Positions 7,935 to 57,290 of a stretch of 64,000 nucleotides of DNA are shown here, piece by piece (the stretch's first letter is position 1; every line of letters starts with the position of its first letter). The DNA comes from Terriglobia bacterium (GTDB lineage Bacteria > Acidobacteriota > Terriglobia > JAJPHL01), in NCBI GenBank assembly GCA_021325275.1, contig JAJPHL010000037.1:124001-188000 (forward strand), in the 5' to 3' direction. Made by a program: the position numbers and the translations under genes. A model generated the notes under the pieces. It saw nothing but the letters and a program-made list of their open reading frames with translations, was not told the DNA's origin and did not search any database.

Positions 7935-8972
7935 TCAGTTTTCCGTTGGCGTCCGCTCGATGTGGTCGATCACCAGGATTTCCACCGGCAACTTTTCCGC
8001 CTGCAAGCGCAATCCTAACTGCTCTTGCAACGCGGTGAAGATGGTCGGTCCCGCGTTATCCGGTGGAGGCGCCGCGTCAGGATTTGCCGCGGCGTTTTCT
8101 TCGATCGGTGACCACTCCAGCTTGATGTCGTAAGCGCCTTTCAGTCCGGTTTGGTCCTGCACCGGATGATCCATGCGCGTGGAGAGCCAATCCGCGAACT
8201 GCCGCATCGATGTTCTGGTTGACGTCACTGAGCCGCGTCCGCCGGTCGTCGAGCCCGGCCCGGGCTCCACCTCTTTGAGCTTTGCGCCGGTCTTAACCAC
8301 GACCAAGGCGTATGCGGAAAGGGTTTTGGTCTCGCGGTGCGACGCCAGTTTGAAGCGGTCCACGAGCAGCGCCTGCAACATGTTTCGCATTTCCTCGCGT
8401 GAGCCCTGCGCGGGTAACTGGGCTTCAATGTCGAAGCGAACGGTATCGAGCCAGTCAGGTCCGGATAGTGAGAAATCCTTCACTTGGTAAGCTTGCTCGA
8501 TGATCGCTTTCAATGGCACGTTGGTCATCACTAGCATGCCCGGACGGCCACTGGTGCGCGAGCTTCGATCGCCGGATGTATTCAACTTGATCGACGCTAC
8601 TTCGAATGTCGCCGGTGCGGACGCCGCGGACGCGTTGGGGTCCAGGCGTTTCAGGTGGACCGGCATGGTCCGCTCGGGATCGCGGCCCTCGGCGGGCATT
8701 CGAAACGTGCCGTCGAGCTCGCCGGACGAATCGACGTGCAGTTCGAGCTCGAACTTGCCCATGTGCAGCGCCACGTGATCGCCATCGATTTTGCCGGTGA
8801 ACGGCCATTGTTCGTTCTTGTCAGGACCGCCCGTGCCGGTGAGTTTGTCGCCGTCTTGTCTTAAAACCACATAGAGCGGTCCGCCGGTCCAGGTGCCCGA
8901 GAGGTCCACGGCCGGCAAAAGCGCGCCGACGACGAGACTGAAGGCCAAGACAATGGTTGTCATGACCGGCAT
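7935..8972 (-). CDS. TIGR03435 family protein (Solibacter-type)
   Basis: From the ATG at 8972 the product is 345 residues with a signal-like start (TTIVLAFSLVVGALL). An N-terminal beta-rich part of about 110 residues (LSGTWTGGPLYVVLRQDG) precedes the TIGR03435 core: FEVASIKLN, VPLKAIIEQAYQV, LVDRFKLASHRETK, ALVVVKTGAKLKE, FADWLSTRM, GLKGAYDIKLEW and a final LPVEILVIDHIERTPTEN. The family is greatly expanded in Solibacter-like acidobacteria and has no established function. A TTG at 8987 is an alternative start. The 282-base gap to the left (7653-7934) holds no gene that I can see, only the upstream region of the AAA operon. Confidence 0.85.
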   Translation of the reverse strand: MPVMTTIVLAFSLVVGALLPAVDLSGTWTGGPLYVVLRQDGDKLTGTGGPDKNEQWPFTGKIDGDHVALHMGKFELELHVDSSGELDGTFRMPAEGRDPERTMPVHLKRLDPNASAASAPATFEVASIKLNTSGDRSSRTSGRPGMLVMTNVPLKAIIEQAYQVKDFSLSGPDWLDTVRFDIEAQLPAQGSREEMRNMLQALLVDRFKLASHRETKTLSAYALVVVKTGAKLKEVEPGPGSTTGGRGSVTSTRTSMRQFADWLSTRMDHPVQDQTGLKGAYDIKLEWSPIEENAAANPDAAPPPDNAGPTIFTALQEQLGLRLQAEKLPVEILVIDHIERTPTEN

Positions 8973-27974: not shown

Positions 27975-28736
27975 TCAGCGAGCGCGCATCTCCGGCACGG
28001 AAGTAAAACTATCGCGCAAGCTGCGGAACAAATTGAAATAGACGATGTACCAAATCGCGGCGATGCCGTCCTTCAAGCCGATCTTCTTGCCTTCTTCGTA
28101 CGTTCGTCCGTAATAACTGATGGGAACCTCGTAAATCGCGCAGCCGAGCTTCGACACTTTGGCCGCCACCTCGATCTCGAAGCCGAAGCCGCTCGATTCG
28201 ATCCGCATTTTGCGCAAAATGTCGCCGCGAAACGCCTTGTAGCCGGTCTCCACGTCGGTGAGGTTGATGTTGGTGAGCAAATTCGAGAACGTGGTGAGCA
28301 TTTTGTTGGCGAGAAAATGATAGTAGTACAGCACGCGCGCGGCTTTTCTCACCAGGAAACGCGATCCGAAGCAGACGTCGGCGCGTCCCTCGAGGATCGG
28401 TTGAATCACCACGGGGATTTCTTCGGGACTATATTCCAGGTCGGCGTCCTGGATGATCAGAATGTCGCCATGCGTCTCGGCGATTCCCGTGCGCAGCGCG
28501 CCCGTCTTGCCTTGATTGCGGACGTGACGCAGCACGCGCATGCGGGGATAGATCGCCGCGAGCCGTTGCGCTTCTTCCTGCGTACCGTCGGTGGAGCAAT
28601 CGTCGACCACCACGATTTCCAGCAGTCCCGGGACGCGATGCAGCGCTTCGATCACCGTTCCCAATGTTTTTCTTTCGTTGAAAACCGGCACAATCACCGA
28701 GAGAACTTCGGGAGTCACCGGGGGCGTTTCGCTCAT
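27975..28736 (-). CDS. Family 2 glycosyltransferase (dolichol-phosphate mannosyltransferase-like)
   Basis: The 253-residue protein has the DPM1-type GT2 motifs: LSVIVPVFNERKTL, EIVVVDDCSTDGT, GKTGALRTGIAETHGDILIIQDADLEYSPEEI (DAD metal site), and VETGYKAFRGDIL. It likely transfers a sugar from a nucleotide donor to a polyprenyl phosphate at the inner face of the membrane. No transmembrane helix is evident; the segment IAAIWYIVYFNLFRSL near the C-terminus may be an amphipathic anchor. It is divergent from the O-antigen ligase-like gene with only 34-70 bases between them. Confidence 0.88.
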   Translation of the reverse strand: MSETPPVTPEVLSVIVPVFNERKTLGTVIEALHRVPGLLEIVVVDDCSTDGTQEEAQRLAAIYPRMRVLRHVRNQGKTGALRTGIAETHGDILIIQDADLEYSPEEIPVVIQPILEGRADVCFGSRFLVRKAARVLYYYHFLANKMLTTFSNLLTNINLTDVETGYKAFRGDILRKMRIESSGFGFEIEVAAKVSKLGCAIYEVPISYYGRTYEEGKKIGLKDGIAAIWYIVYFNLFRSLRDSFTSVPEMRAR

Positions 28737-30175: not shown

Positions 30176-32863
30176 TTAGGCTAATAGGTTTGCCGTCAAA
30201 TGCGCCGAAGTCTGCATTGCCACAACTTCTTTCGCCGGTTTTCCCGTAGCGCGTTGCCATGCCGCCAGCGCGAGCAGCGGAAAATAATGCCGGTACAAGT
30301 GATACGAGAGATAAAACACGTTCGGAAATCCCGTGCCGGTCATTAATTCCTCATCCCACGTTCCCAGCGCGTTTTGATGTTCCACCAGCCACTGGACCCC
30401 GCGGCGCGCGGCTTCACCGGCGCTTTCTCCCGCCGCGTCGAGACCAAGCAGGGCCCACGCGGTTTGCGACGGAGTGCTCTCCGCGCGCACGAAATGATGC
30501 AATTGGTAGCCGGCGCAGCTTTCACCCCATCCACCGTCCGAGTTTTGCACAGACCGCAGCCACGAGGCACCGGCGCGAATTTGCTCGCCGCATTCCGCGC
30601 CGCTGGCGCGCAAGCCTCGCATCGCCAGAAACGTCCCGTAGGTATAGTTGACACCCCAACGTCCATACCAACTGCCGTCGTGACGCTGATGCGTTTGCAA
30701 ATAACGCACGCCCCGCGCGATCGCCGGATTCTCATGCGTATATCCGCGCCGGCACAGCGCTTCGATCACGCGTCCGGTGATATCGGGACACGTGGGATCG
30801 AGCATGGCGTTGTGATCCGCGAACGGAACTTTGCTCAGCACTTGCCAGTTGTTGTCCACGTCGAACGCGGCCCATCCGCCGTCGGATGATTGCATGCCCA
30901 GCAGCCACGTGATCGCCCGGCGCTCGGCGCGCGTTTGCCGCTCGAGGTCGGAAGCGTTGGCGTGTTGCAGCGCCAGCAGCACCATCGCCGTGTCGTCGAT
31001 GTCGGGATAGAACTCGTTGGCAAATTCGAACGCCCAACCGCTCGGCGGTAGATTCGGCCGCTTCACCGACCAATCTCCCTTGCGGCGCACTTCGCGATCG
31101 AGCAACCAATCCGCGGCCGCGCGCATCGCGTTCGGTTCGCCCGCGCCGAGTTCGCCAAGTGCGAACATCGAGATCGCCGTGTCCCACACCGGCGACAAGC
31201 TCGGTTGAAACTCCATGCGGCCGCCGGCGCGAATCGTTTGGGTAAAATCGCCGGGCGTCTCAACGGCCACGCTCCCCGCCGATGCCGCATGTGCAGCTTC
31301 GCGAAACAGCATCAAACCTTCGAATTGCCGCAGCGTCTCCACAAAATCGGGATGATCGCGTTCGTAGCCGAGCGCGTCCATGGCCATCAGCGCGTACATC
31401 ATCGAGGGATAGATCGCGCCGACGCCGTCCGACGACCGCATGTGATCGACGGTCCACTGCTCGGCGGCGCGAATCGCTTTAGCGCGAATTTCCTTGAGTC
31501 CACGGCGCTCCCACAGTTTCAGCACGCGATCCGCTTGGTTGAACACCGCGGAAATGCGATCGCGCTTCGGCAGCGCCAATTTTTTCCCCGGCAAATACAA
31601 TTCGTCGACGTTCATTCCGCCAGGAGTCGGCCGCTGAGCGCCCAGCGCCTGGATGATCGAGAGCGGCATGATGATCACGCGGCTCCACGACGACATTTCG
31701 TAGAGCAAATTACCGGGCATCAGCACCAACTCGGGCGGAATACTCGGCGCGGCGTGCCGTGGAAACATTCCAAACAAACTGAGATTGATCCGCGTGTAGC
31801 TGTTGGCCGCCTGCAATCCGCCCAGCGCCAGCACGCGGCGCCGCGCGCGCTGCATTTCCGGCTGCGACGGGTCGCATCCACCCATCTTCAGCGCCGTATA
31901 GGCGCGTGCGGTCGCGCTGACTTCCGATGGTCCACCGGGATATAAGTTCCATCCGCCATCCGGCAGTTGGCGATCGAGCAACGTCGCCAGCGCCATATCG
32001 ATTTTCGCGCGCCACGGCGGATTCCAGTGCGCGCCCTCGGGGGGGTAGAGCCACATGGCCAGAAAAATAAAATCCGATTCGAGCGTAGTGTCGGCGGTGA
32101 GATGCCCGTGCCAGTATCCCGCACGATGCTGCCAACGCAAGAGTGTGTGCGCGGCGGCTTGCGCGGCTTGCTGGGCTTGCGGCGCGAGTTCGCCAAAATC
32201 TTCTTGCGACGATGCCAGAATCGCGGCGACGTCGGCGAAGGGAATTTGCTGAACGATTTGCCGGGCGTCCGCCGGCTCGCCGCCTTGTTCGATCAAGGCA
32301 TGGATTTCGCGGACGATCGACGCACGGCGCTCCGGGGGCGGCGGCGCGAGACCCAGCGCTTCGCTGAACCACAAGCCTTCCGCCGCCAGGCGCGCGATCA
32401 AGGCGCGCGACGGGTCGATGCCGTCGTGATCCAAATTGTTTTGCCAATCGCGGTAGACTTCGCGCAAGGGGTCAAGCAGGGCGGGCGCGCTGGTCATCGC
32501 CACCATCAGAATCGCGGCGATTTCGTGGCCTTGCAGCGGCCGCAGCTCGCCGGATTCGTCGTCGGTGGAATCGGTTTCGCCCGGGCGGGCGTGGTTTTCA
32601 AGCGCCGCCGCAACAAATGATCGCGTATGGGAACCGGGTCCGGCGGAACGCGCTCGAACCACGCTCGTGTCGCGACTGAGCCGCATCATTAAGAGACCCA
32701 CCAGTCCCTCGATCAGCTGTTCCTTACCGGCGTAGTGGTACAGTAGACCACCCTTAGAGACACCGGCTTCGCGGGCTACTCGATCTAGGGTTAAGGAATC
32801 GACACCTTCTCGTATGATTAGGTCGATGGCGGCTTGGAGAACGGCTTCCCGTGTACTGGCCAT
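30176..32863 (-). CDS. shc: TetR-family regulator fused to squalene-hopene cyclase
   Basis: One uninterrupted frame of 895 residues from the ATG at 32863. Residues ~1-62 are a TetR DNA-binding domain (REAVLQAAIDLIIREG, LTLDRVAREAGVSKGGLLYHY, KEQLIEGLV); residues ~63-215 are an all-helical TetR-type ligand domain ending ASIVREIHALIEQ. From about residue 230 it is a full squalene-hopene cyclase: LRWQHRAGYWHGHLTADTT, PDGGWNLYPGG, catalytic DIDD at 621-624 in the DxDD context PDIDDTA, and QW motifs (QSSDGGWAAFD, QNSDGGWGE). The cyclase part (~665 residues) matches free-standing enzymes in length. It should convert squalene to hopene or diplopterol at the membrane, and may repress its own promoter. 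No squalene-synthesis genes are adjacent. The longer frame to 32899 would place the operator in coding sequence and is rejected. Confidence 0.88.
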   Translation of the reverse strand: MASTREAVLQAAIDLIIREGVDSLTLDRVAREAGVSKGGLLYHYAGKEQLIEGLVGLLMMRLSRDTSVVRARSAGPGSHTRSFVAAALENHARPGETDSTDDESGELRPLQGHEIAAILMVAMTSAPALLDPLREVYRDWQNNLDHDGIDPSRALIARLAAEGLWFSEALGLAPPPPERRASIVREIHALIEQGGEPADARQIVQQIPFADVAAILASSQEDFGELAPQAQQAAQAAAHTLLRWQHRAGYWHGHLTADTTLESDFIFLAMWLYPPEGAHWNPPWRAKIDMALATLLDRQLPDGGWNLYPGGPSEVSATARAYTALKMGGCDPSQPEMQRARRRVLALGGLQAANSYTRINLSLFGMFPRHAAPSIPPELVLMPGNLLYEMSSWSRVIIMPLSIIQALGAQRPTPGGMNVDELYLPGKKLALPKRDRISAVFNQADRVLKLWERRGLKEIRAKAIRAAEQWTVDHMRSSDGVGAIYPSMMYALMAMDALGYERDHPDFVETLRQFEGLMLFREAAHAASAGSVAVETPGDFTQTIRAGGRMEFQPSLSPVWDTAISMFALGELGAGEPNAMRAAADWLLDREVRRKGDWSVKRPNLPPSGWAFEFANEFYPDIDDTAMVLLALQHANASDLERQTRAERRAITWLLGMQSSDGGWAAFDVDNNWQVLSKVPFADHNAMLDPTCPDITGRVIEALCRRGYTHENPAIARGVRYLQTHQRHDGSWYGRWGVNYTYGTFLAMRGLRASGAECGEQIRAGASWLRSVQNSDGGWGESCAGYQLHHFVRAESTPSQTAWALLGLDAAGESAGEAARRGVQWLVEHQNALGTWDEELMTGTGFPNVFYLSYHLYRHYFPLLALAAWQRATGKPAKEVVAMQTSAHLTANLLA

Positions 32864-32870
32864 GCCGGGC

Positions 32871-32899
32871 AGTGTACCGTCCGGACGGTAACTTGTCAA
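32871..32899 (-). promoter_or_regulatory. Promoter with TetR-type operator upstream of the TetR-cyclase fusion
   Basis: On the minus strand: TTGACA (32899-32894), 17 bases, TACACT (32876-32871), then 7 bases to the ATG at 32863. The spacer and first two bases of the -10 form a perfect 16-bp palindrome, TACCGTCCGGACGGTA (32875-32890), the usual type of TetR operator. Bound repressor would block both boxes. With +1 at or next to the ATG, the mRNA would be leaderless, and no Shine-Dalgarno is present. Confidence 0.7.
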
Positions 32900-32993
32900 C
32901 GGGATACTTATTCGAGTGGCACCAGCCTACTTTCAGGTCCATTTTCGACTTGGAGAACCCCGGCAGCTTGGTGTTAACTGTAACGGACACATT

Positions 32994-34012
32994 ATGAAAC
33001 GTGCGTTGATAACGGGCATCACCGGACAAGACGGGTCTTATTTGGCGGAGTTTCTGATCGAAAAGGGCTATGAAGTTCACGGCGTGATCCGCCGCGCCAG
33101 TTCCTTCAACACCGAGCGGCTGGAGCATCTCTATCAGGACCCGCACACGCGCGGGGCTCGCATGAAACTGCACTACGGCGACCTCAGCGACTCGGTGAAT
33201 CTGGTCAAACTGCTGCACAACTTGAAGCCCGACGAAATCTATAACCTCGGCGCGCAGAGTCACGTGCGCGTCAGCTTCGATATCCCCGAGTACACGGCCG
33301 ATATCGGAGGACTCGGCACGATCCGCATTCTGGAGGCGATCCGCGAAGCGCAGGTGCGGCCGCGTTTCTATCAAGCGTCGTCGAGCGAAATGTTCGGGAA
33401 GGTCGCCGAGATTCCGCAGCGCGAGACCACGCCGTTTCATCCGCGCAGTCCTTACGCGGTGGCCAAAGTTTTTTCGTATTGGGCCACGGTGAATTATCGC
33501 GAAAGCTACAATCTGCACGCGTGCAACGGAATCTTGTTCAATCACGAATCGCCGCGGCGCGGCGACACCTTTGTGACGCGCAAGATTACGCGAGCGGTCG
33601 CGTACATCAAAGCGGGATTGCAGGACAAACTGTTTCTCGGCAATCTTGACGCCAAGCGCGATTGGGGATACGCCAAGGAATACGTGGAAGCGATGTGGCT
33701 GATGCTGCAACAAGACCAGCCCGACGACTACGTCATCGCGACGGGTGAGACGCACTCGGTGAAGGAGTTTTGCGAAGAGGCATTCGGTCACGTGGATCTC
33801 GACTGGAGCAAGTATGTGGAGATCGACGAGCGCTATTTTCGTCCCGCCGAGGTGGACCTTCTCATTGGCGATGCGTCGAAGGCGAAAAACGTTCTCGGCT
33901 GGGAGCCGAAAGTGAAGTTTAAGGAACTGGTGCGCCTGATGGTCGACGCGGATGTGGAACACTTGGAAGGCAAACTCGCCGGCCGCGTGAAGCGCGCCGA
34001 TGGTCGCCACAC

Positions 34013-34016
<4 letters not shown>
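32994..34016 (+). CDS. gmd: GDP-mannose 4,6-dehydratase
   Basis: The protein is 340 residues from the ATG at 32994. The N-terminal NAD(P) motif [18 protein letters not shown], the [18 protein letters not shown] segment, active-site SSSEMFG, and YAVAK (SDR Tyr/Lys pair, YxxxK) are all typical, as are [19 protein letters not shown] and [16 protein letters not shown]. It makes GDP-4-keto-6-deoxymannose, the precursor of GDP-L-fucose and related sugars. The 78-base upstream in-frame extension to 32916 has no family match. The stop codon shares bases with the stop of the convergent methyltransferase-GT2 gene. Confidence 0.95.
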
Positions 34017-37767
<3,751 letters not shown>

Positions 37768-54788: not shown

Positions 54789-57290
54789 ATGAAGAAGCTA
54801 GGCATTCTTGCCGCAACACTCTTAGTGTGGATCGCCGCGTTCGCGGCGCACGCCGCGGCGCAAGATACCGGGACCACGCTCAATGGCATGATTCAAGACG
54901 CTGCGGGTAAAGCCGTTCCGGCGGCGGAAGTTTCCGTAAAGAATAACGCCACAGCGAACGCTCGCAAGGCCACGTGCGACGCAGAAGGAAAGTTTTCCGT
55001 CGCCGGTTTGACGGCGGGCGTCTACACCGTGGAAGTTTCCGCGGCCGGCTTCGCCACGGCGACGCGCAACGACGTGCGCCTCGGCGGCGGTACGATGGAC
55101 ATCACCATTCCGCTGTCCGTCGCGACCGTCGCTGAATCCGTCACGGTCGAGGCGGTGGAATCGGTTGCCGCGGAGATGGCCCCGATGCAGTCGTCGCTGG
55201 AAACGCATTCCGCCCGCTCCGAGATTTCGCAGGCCTTTGTGGAAAACTTCACGTCGCCGATCGGCGACTACAGCGAAGTGCTGCTGATGGCGCCGGGCAC
55301 GTTTAGTGTGAATCCCAACGGCGTAGGTCTCGGCCAAGCCAAGGACTTTTTCCGCGGCTTTCCCGACGGCGATTACACGATGACCTGGGACGGAATTCCG
55401 TTCGAGGACACCAATTCTCCCACGCACCACACCTGGGTGTTCTTCCCCGGCGTTTGGATCGGCGGAACGGAATTCGATCGCAGCCCCGGAACGGCGTCGT
55501 CGATTGGTCCCACGAATTTCGGCGGCACCATCAATTTGCTTTCGCGCGAAGTCCCCAACAGCATGGGAATCCAAGCGTCGATTTCTTACGGTTCCTTCAA
55601 CACCAAGCTGCTCGACCTCGGTATCGACACCGGATTGTTTGGCCCCAACAAAAAGTCGAGCCTGTTGATCGACGTTCACGGACTGAAATCCGACGGATAC
55701 CAGACGTACAATTATCAGAAGCGCGACGGCGGCAACTTGAAGTATCAGTACCGCGTGAGCGACAAAACCACGGTGACGTTCTATACCAACTTTTTGGACC
55801 TTTGGACGAACACGCCGAACTTCAACGGTCCCACGCGCGCGCAGGTGAATCAGTTTGGCGTGAACTTCCTGTTGTCGGGCAATCCCGCCACCAGCGACGG
55901 ATCGTACTGGCCGCTCGATTACTACCACGTGCAGACGAATTTTTCGTACTTCGGTTATCGCTCCGATCTCGGCCACGGTTGGAGCATCGACAACAAGCTC
56001 TATGGTTATCACTATTGGAATAAACAAAATTACAACAACAGCCTCACGACGTACCTGCCGACCACGTCGTCCGATCCCGGCGTCGACAAGCTGAACGGTT
56101 ACACAAAATTCGGCGACACGCTGTCGCTGAACTATGCGAACCGCTTCGGAACCTTCCACACGGGAATGTGGTACGAGTGGGCGTACACGGATCGCTACCA
56201 GGTTCCCTCCAGCCCGTCGCAAAACTACCTCGACGCGATTCTGCCGAATTTCCACGAACACTTCATCACCACGTCGGTGCAGCCGTATGTCGAGTACGAA
56301 TGGCGCGCCACGAGCCGCTTGAGCGTCACGGCCGGCATCCGCTGGTCGTACTACATCATGAACCTGACGCAATATCAGGACAACGGCAAGACGGTTGGCT
56401 GCCTGGGCGGCACGCTCGTGAAGCCCGCCGGAATCGCCGGACCGATCCCGATCGCGCAGCAGGCTATCGAGTTTTGCAACGGCGGCGCGCCGTGGACGAA
56501 GCATGAAGGCCGCTACACGGCGATGGATCCTTCGCTCGACCTCCGTTATCGCCTAGCGCACGGATGGTCGGCGTACGCGCAGTACGCGCGCGGATCCATC
56601 ATTCCGCCGTCGAGCGTGTTCGACGTGTCCAACGGATTGGTGAAGACTCTGCCGAGTCCTTCGATGACCAACACATTTCAGGCCGGTACGGTGTTCAAAA
56701 AGAATCGCGTGACGCTCGATGTGGACGCGTACTACGTTCGCTTCCAGAACGCGTACACGTCGTACACCGATTCGAGCGGTGAACCGGTGTACACGCTGCC
56801 GGGCGATTCCCGCACGCGCGGAATCGAAGCGGAGAGCAACATTTACGCGGGCCATGGATTCAGCGTGTACCTGAACGCCAGCGCCGGCAAAGCGTTCTAC
56901 GTGAACAACGGCTTCTGGGTGGCGAATACGCCGTCGAACATCGAAACCGTCGGCGTGCTCTATCAACACAAGCAGTGGGACTTTGGTGTTTTCAACAAAC
57001 GCGTAGGTCCGATGTGGAACGACAACGGCACGTTCAATCAGTCGGTGCCGATCGATCCGTTCGAACTGACGAACGTGTACGCCAACTACACGATCAAGCA
57101 AGACTCCTGGTTGCGCGGCACCAAGCTGCGCCTGTCTGTGAACAACATTCAAAACAGTCACGCGATCACCGGCATCACCGCGGCGACCGTGAGCCAGGTG
57201 TACACCCCGAATCCCGGCGACACGCTGGTGCTGCTGCCTGCGCGCAGCATCACCATGACGGTCACGCTGGGTTTGGCGCCGAAGCGGTAA
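54789..57290 (+). CDS. TonB-dependent receptor with carboxypeptidase-regulatory-like domain
   Basis: The protein is 833 residues from the ATG at 54789 (GGAGGG upstream). Signal peptide (LGILAATLLVWIAAFAAHAAA), a regulatory-like beta domain (TLNGMIQDAAGKAVPAAEVSV), plug region (DGDYTMTWDGIPFEDTNS, FGGTINLLSREVPNS), then a barrel with aromatic-rich strands (GYQTYNYQKRDGGNLKYQYRVSD, YAQYARGS). It is shorter than the other two receptors in the window and closer to classical TonB receptors. The C-terminal TVTLGLAPKR lacks a terminal Phe. It overlaps the convergent thioredoxin-like gene by 29 bases. Confidence 0.85.
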   Translation: MKKLGILAATLLVWIAAFAAHAAAQDTGTTLNGMIQDAAGKAVPAAEVSVKNNATANARKATCDAEGKFSVAGLTAGVYTVEVSAAGFATATRNDVRLGGGTMDITIPLSVATVAESVTVEAVESVAAEMAPMQSSLETHSARSEISQAFVENFTSPIGDYSEVLLMAPGTFSVNPNGVGLGQAKDFFRGFPDGDYTMTWDGIPFEDTNSPTHHTWVFFPGVWIGGTEFDRSPGTASSIGPTNFGGTINLLSREVPNSMGIQASISYGSFNTKLLDLGIDTGLFGPNKKSSLLIDVHGLKSDGYQTYNYQKRDGGNLKYQYRVSDKTTVTFYTNFLDLWTNTPNFNGPTRAQVNQFGVNFLLSGNPATSDGSYWPLDYYHVQTNFSYFGYRSDLGHGWSIDNKLYGYHYWNKQNYNNSLTTYLPTTSSDPGVDKLNGYTKFGDTLSLNYANRFGTFHTGMWYEWAYTDRYQVPSSPSQNYLDAILPNFHEHFITTSVQPYVEYEWRATSRLSVTAGIRWSYYIMNLTQYQDNGKTVGCLGGTLVKPAGIAGPIPIAQQAIEFCNGGAPWTKHEGRYTAMDPSLDLRYRLAHGWSAYAQYARGSIIPPSSVFDVSNGLVKTLPSPSMTNTFQAGTVFKKNRVTLDVDAYYVRFQNAYTSYTDSSGEPVYTLPGDSRTRGIEAESNIYAGHGFSVYLNASAGKAFYVNNGFWVANTPSNIETVGVLYQHKQWDFGVFNKRVGPMWNDNGTFNQSVPIDPFELTNVYANYTIKQDSWLRGTKLRLSVNNIQNSHAITGITAATVSQVYTPNPGDTLVLLPARSITMTVTLGLAPKR

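Follow-up and report, generated by a model that had tools for sequence, protein, structure and literature searches.

A triterpene cyclase gene in a 64,000-nt stretch of bacterial DNA (the whole stretch analysed, hereafter the window) encodes a bifunctional protein, a TetR-family regulator joined to a squalene-hopene cyclase (SHC), and the perfect 16-bp palindrome TACCGTCCGGACGGTA in its promoter is very probably the operator through which this protein would regulate its own synthesis. Autoregulation through this site is strongly supported by comparative sequence analysis, and the original prediction that the palindrome occupies the position used for TetR autoregulation is borne out at that level, the site being retained in 16/16 fused relatives and following the TetR half of the protein.

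The fused gene and its product

The fusion gene (30176..32863, minus strand) encodes 895 aa, in which Pfam and NCBIfam models delimit a TetR_N HTH (residues 9-52; PF00440, 45.2 bits against a Pfam cut-off of 24), a TetR_C_28 ligand/dimer domain (residues 113-192; PF17937, 83.6 bits, cut-off 26.4), a variable linker (residues about 193-228) and a full-length cyclase with both SHC domains (residues 229-872; TIGR01507, 586 bits against an equivalog cut-off of 431). The catalytic DXDDTA motif reads DIDDTA in the window's fused cyclase, DIDDT is found in every fusion long enough to reach the motif, and the recognition segment SKGGLLYH in the HTH is invariant across fusions. Pairwise dN/dS among fusions is 0.02-0.11 for the HTH and 0.04-0.06 for the SHC, the linker being looser in most pairs; by these comparisons both halves are under purifying selection and are being maintained, and the gene is, on sequence evidence, a true TetR (TetR_C_28)-SHC fusion that is both real and old. 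An AlphaFold model of the fusion (8 sequences) reached a mean pLDDT of 54, too poor to judge joint dimerisation of the halves. Among the genomes examined, no conserved neighbours of the fusion hinting at a function or a further target were found. Also on the minus strand of the window, a single open reading frame (34013-35455) combines an N-terminal methyltransferase with a C-terminal family 2 glycosyltransferase.

Promoter, palindrome and start codon

Each promoter element that had been claimed for this gene (TTGACA, 17 nt, TACACT, 7 nt, ATG) is present on the minus strand at that spacing: a -35 element TTGACA (32894..32899; sequence and promoter scan), the 17-nt spacer (32893-32877), a -10 element TACACT (32871..32876; promoter scan), the 7-nt gap (32870-32864) and the ATG start codon (32861..32863; sequence and relatives), which is the predicted 5′ end of a leaderless mRNA. 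A promoter scan of 32500-33100 returned this as the sole sigma-70-like site, with 10/12 matches. The 130-nt intergenic region (32864..32993) is common to the fusion gene and a divergent plus-strand gene for GDP-mannose 4,6-dehydratase, whose ATG is at 32994. The palindrome (32875..32890), a predicted TetR operator from its sequence and conservation, was said to cover the spacer; the perfect 16-bp repeat is indeed there, but 14 of the 17 spacer bases lie within it, together with the first two bases of the -10 element.

The window has four perfect 16-bp palindromes against an expectation of about one (64000/4^8), and the other three lie at 8740-8755, 28206-28221 and 55253-55268. Taken alone, the palindrome is not significant, and it is its position and conservation that carry weight. 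For one to land in a given 130-nt intergenic stretch is a ~0.2% event, and a pattern search of the 6.86-Mb genome to which the window belongs returned a single exact copy of TACCGTCCGGACGGTA. The decisive evidence is conservation.

Fusion-bearing relatives and conservation of the site

A scan of named genomes recovered six Nitrospirales loci with 41-47% identity across the TetR half and the junction, and in the class to which one of these Nitrospirales belongs, 15 of the 269 genomes searched carried the fusion, five of them already found. The related set comprises 16 Nitrospirota loci, or 17 fusions when that of the window is counted. Most of the fusion-bearing Nitrospirota genomes also have an ordinary SHC of 720-770 aa. 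No further fusion besides the window's was found among 399 genomes of its class or among 396 genomes of its phylum, probably Acidobacteriota, its order being represented by only two genomes.

Aligned upstream regions of the fusions contain ACC..C..GACGGTA.A.T, invariant directly upstream of the gene in 17/17, with flanking bases near background. In the relatives, TTGA of the -35 element is kept in 15/16 (TTGC in L151), the spacing from -35 to -10 is 17-18 nt, and the aligned -10 reads TACAGT, TATAGT or TACATT (TANANT), with its T, A, A and T positions invariant. The distance from GACGGTA to ATG is 17, 18, 19, 32 or 40 nt, and since this offset slips the frame, the upstream element is not conserved coding sequence. 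A search upstream of the gene in fusion-bearing relatives, suggested as a check on the palindrome, located the site at the same place in 16/16. What did not hold is its perfect symmetry, which only the window and one relative (L044) share; at most Nitrospirota sites the palindrome is imperfect, the fixed half being the one over the -10 element. The presumed operator is kept, in other words, but not as a perfect repeat. In three relatives (L154, L156, L160) about 13 or 21 bp are tandemly duplicated upstream of the fusion gene, which places a copy of the -10/operator half next to the ATG.

The operator pattern used in genome-wide searches was drawn from the Nitrospirota fusion sites, and the window's own site has one mismatch to it. 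Every Nitrospirota genome listed had a single match with 0 mismatches, invariably at the fusion promoter, and two-mismatch sites were as common in those genomes as for a reversed control pattern. The search pattern having been derived from the fusion sites themselves, the informative part is the lack of excess elsewhere: other candidate targets in those genomes were weak matches at background level, and no clear predicted target besides the promoter of the fusion itself emerged in the genomes searched. One two-mismatch site (C13:100625, L002) was discarded as it lies inside an open reading frame. Alignments and searches together show an operator-promoter-start module that, as predicted from sequence, is conserved across two phyla.

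Association with the TetR half, split operons and origin

The sequence ACCGWCYRGWCGGT occurs within 120 nt upstream of 68 of the 106 related TetR loci, where its frequency in the rest of those loci predicts 0.1, and standalone TetR_C_28 genes with no associated cyclase are among those that have the operator. The nearest standalone relatives of the fused SHCs (L007-L011) had neither a TetR gene nor the operator in their vicinity. By its distribution, the putative operator goes with the TetR half rather than with the cyclase half.

In five genomes of the window's class (L242-L246), TetR and SHC are encoded in an unfused, ancestor-like form, by overlapping or abutting genes behind the same operator, with offsets between TetR stop and SHC start of -4, -1, -1, 0 and -1 nt and the -10 element 3-9 nt before the ATG; in L245, the SHC ATG comes immediately after the TetR stop codon, TAG, and is in frame with it. 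Fusion may have come about by loss of the stop codon in such a TetR-SHC operon with overlapping stop and start codons. The trees of both halves agree, with support of 100/99 for the fused SHC and 100/98 for the fused TetR, 99/99 for the clade of TetR-linked SHCs and 94/95 for that of SHC-linked TetRs, and the fused SHC nests among SHCs of the window's class, apart from the ordinary Nitrospirota SHC. We infer an origin as an operon in the window's class, then fusion, and then transfer, together with the promoter, between that lineage and Nitrospirota. In three further loci (L253-L255), related TetR genes with the same operator are followed by a gene with a membrane-fusion-type, lipoprotein-like start, a context which suggests an efflux-type regulator as the ancestor of the TetR half.

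Leaderless expression

The first T of TACACT lies 13 nt ahead of the ATG in the window, and 14/17 fusions have a similar arrangement, with a gap from -10 to ATG of 6-8 nt. A TANNNT motif ~12 nt upstream of the start marks leaderless genes, and Acidobacteria are among the phyla that have them (PMC3160421). At the window locus, the placement of the -10 element puts the expected transcription start at the start codon, with no Shine-Dalgarno sequence. Other TetR genes behind the same operator include a short group, with 3-9 nt between -10 and ATG and Shine-Dalgarno sequences nearly absent, and a longer group whose Bacillota members have 23-39 nt and a clear Shine-Dalgarno. The same switch thus appears leadered where Shine-Dalgarno initiation dominates and leaderless-looking elsewhere. 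The claim that the short gap implies a leaderless transcript gains support both from the conservation of the 6-8 nt distance and from this comparison with the leadered Bacillota relatives, which favours leaderless translation at the window locus. In the three relatives with duplications or insertions, 21-29 nt separate the main -10 from the ATG; in two of these (L154, L156) a -10-like hexamer recurs 8 nt before the ATG, and in the third (L160) the second copy of the duplication has decayed, so that its mRNA would have a short leader.

Alternative explanations

Of the readings that compete with autoregulation by a leaderless, bifunctional gene, two treat the palindrome or the fusion as spurious. 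That the palindrome is a chance occurrence, or a generic GC-rich inverted repeat devoid of function, might be argued from the fourfold count of such palindromes in the window, but it is refuted by conservation, the site recurring at the corresponding position in 16 fusions from another phylum, five split operons and dozens of standalone TetR promoters, and is scarcely credible. Just as implausible is an assembly or frameshift artefact that joined two adjacent genes: related genomes do have two adjacent, overlapping genes of this kind, yet the frame is free of stops in 16 other loci from independent genomes, which refutes it, and the linker is retained in fusions. In two genomes (G632, G633) the fusion lies on single contigs of 4.55 and 4.80 Mb, which makes assembly error unlikely.

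The remaining two accept the site or the circuit but reassign a part. It is decidedly unlikely that the operator serves another repressor of the TetR family, encoded at a separate locus, and that the fusion's own TetR half is vestigial or binds other DNA. Operators of the ACCGNC..GNCGGT type are common to several TetR branches, so a second protein could bind; against this, the fusion is the only TetR_C_28 protein of its own genome, the site travels with the fusion into Nitrospirota, the HTH of the fusion is under strong purifying selection, and no other site rises above background in the Nitrospirota genomes searched. Unlikely, too, is the combination of autoregulation with a leadered mRNA, made from another promoter or translated from an in-frame TTG at 32899 inside the -35 element, even though the longest open reading frame opens at that TTG and two of the relatives with duplications (L154, L160) have the longer distance from main -10 to ATG. 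A second sigma-70-like site is absent from 32500-33100, and a start inside the -35 element would precede the promoter's own start point. An N-terminal extension from TTG 32899 was rejected on the grounds that the upstream element is out of frame with the ATG in relatives (L150-type promoters), and such an extension is therefore unconserved.

Proposed mechanism

According to the preferred reading, autoregulation from a leaderless transcript, the TetR half would bind between the -35 and -10 elements as a dimer or a pair of dimers, and the bound repressor, covering the spacer and the margin of the -10, would exclude RNA polymerase, so that the enzyme would repress its own synthesis. The transcript would begin at the ATG, or one to two bases from it, and be translated without a Shine-Dalgarno sequence. 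How repression would be lifted is more speculative. A hydrophobic ligand, related to triterpenoids or membrane-active, might occupy the TetR ligand domain, or alternatively the monotopic cyclase half might draw the protein to the membrane; either could release repression, SHC having been described as a monotopic enzyme of the membrane (PMC7232578). Derepression might then, equally speculatively, match the supply of cyclase to demand, as with PutA. We would entertain, at somewhat less than even confidence, the broader proposal that a triterpene cyclase of the hopanoid type is its own transcriptional repressor, its amount being set by partition between membrane and DNA or by binding of squalene or a hopanoid in the TetR pocket, and that it acts as a one-protein lipid homeostat in Nitrospirota and in the window's lineage, beside an ordinary cyclase that has no TetR domain.

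Other triterpene cyclases of the genome

Three triterpene cyclases, the fused enzyme included, are encoded in the genome to which the window belongs. One is an ordinary SHC (L240:619-3611, contig C75) whose gene overlaps ispH/lytB, an arrangement linking MEP isoprenoid supply to hopanoid synthesis. The other is an oxidosqualene cyclase (TIGR03463, above cut-off) arranged in tandem with a P450 and a squalene epoxidase (L241:6118-10834, contig C25), probably a bacterial sterol-type cluster, which the genome carries in addition to its two hopene cyclases.

Significance and comparison with known systems

No description of a TetR-SHC fusion or of a self-repressing cyclase was found in the open-access literature, nor anything relevant on the operator sequence itself, and shc is reported for cultured marine Nitrospirales in a paper in which TetR goes unmentioned; a self-regulating cyclase of the kind proposed here thus appears to be undescribed in that literature. 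The control of hopanoid (sterol-surrogate) synthesis in bacteria is poorly known, and the locus offers a defined circuit, one gene under one predicted operator, that is conserved in two phyla and has unfused two-gene counterparts extant, and in which the path from a regulator-enzyme operon to a single protein can be traced. A single purified protein and a 40-bp DNA fragment should therefore suffice to test for the signal behind hopanoid output. Marine Nitrospirales exist in culture (PMC10579370), and any cultured strain found to have the fusion may therefore permit an in vivo test.

Among relatives of the TetR half with a solved structure, the best is CgmR of C. glutamicum (PDB 2YVE, 2YVH, 2ZOY), the top match over the HTH in a PDB sequence search, a sequence-specific TetR-family repressor that binds its 32-bp operator as a dimer of dimers (PMC4150764). 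Two control genomes had a TetR_C_28 protein, and that of C. glutamicum was among them. CgmR is standalone and multidrug-responsive, whereas in the window a regulator of the same kind has a triterpene cyclase attached to it. Standalone TetR_C_28 regulators with the operator ACCGTCYRGACGGT (L253-L255 and, in Bacillota, L048, L053 and L057) have it at the same spacer position over the -10 element, in an autoregulatory geometry, but they lack an enzyme domain, and the Bacillota members have a 5′ leader and a Shine-Dalgarno, unlike the window. Closer still are the split TetR-SHC operons, which share with the window the operator, the short distance from -10 to ATG and homologous TetR and SHC, but make two proteins from overlapping or abutting genes where the window makes one. 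With SHC in general (TIGR01507) the window's enzyme has in common the full-length domain and the DXDDTA motif; it differs from the ordinary enzyme in its added N-terminal TetR domain and in being a second such cyclase beside the genome's ordinary SHC.

An operator in a TetR gene's own promoter, and TetR autoregulation through it, are textbook features. For an enzyme that is itself the repressor, the parallel is PutA, in which one polypeptide serves as a metabolic enzyme associated with the membrane and also represses its own gene, repression being released by proline and membrane binding. PutA has a ribbon-helix-helix DNA-binding domain, unlike the TetR fold of the window's protein, and the enzymes also differ; the likeness, as predicted from sequence, lies in the union of an enzyme and a DNA-binding domain in one polypeptide with a putative operator at its own gene.
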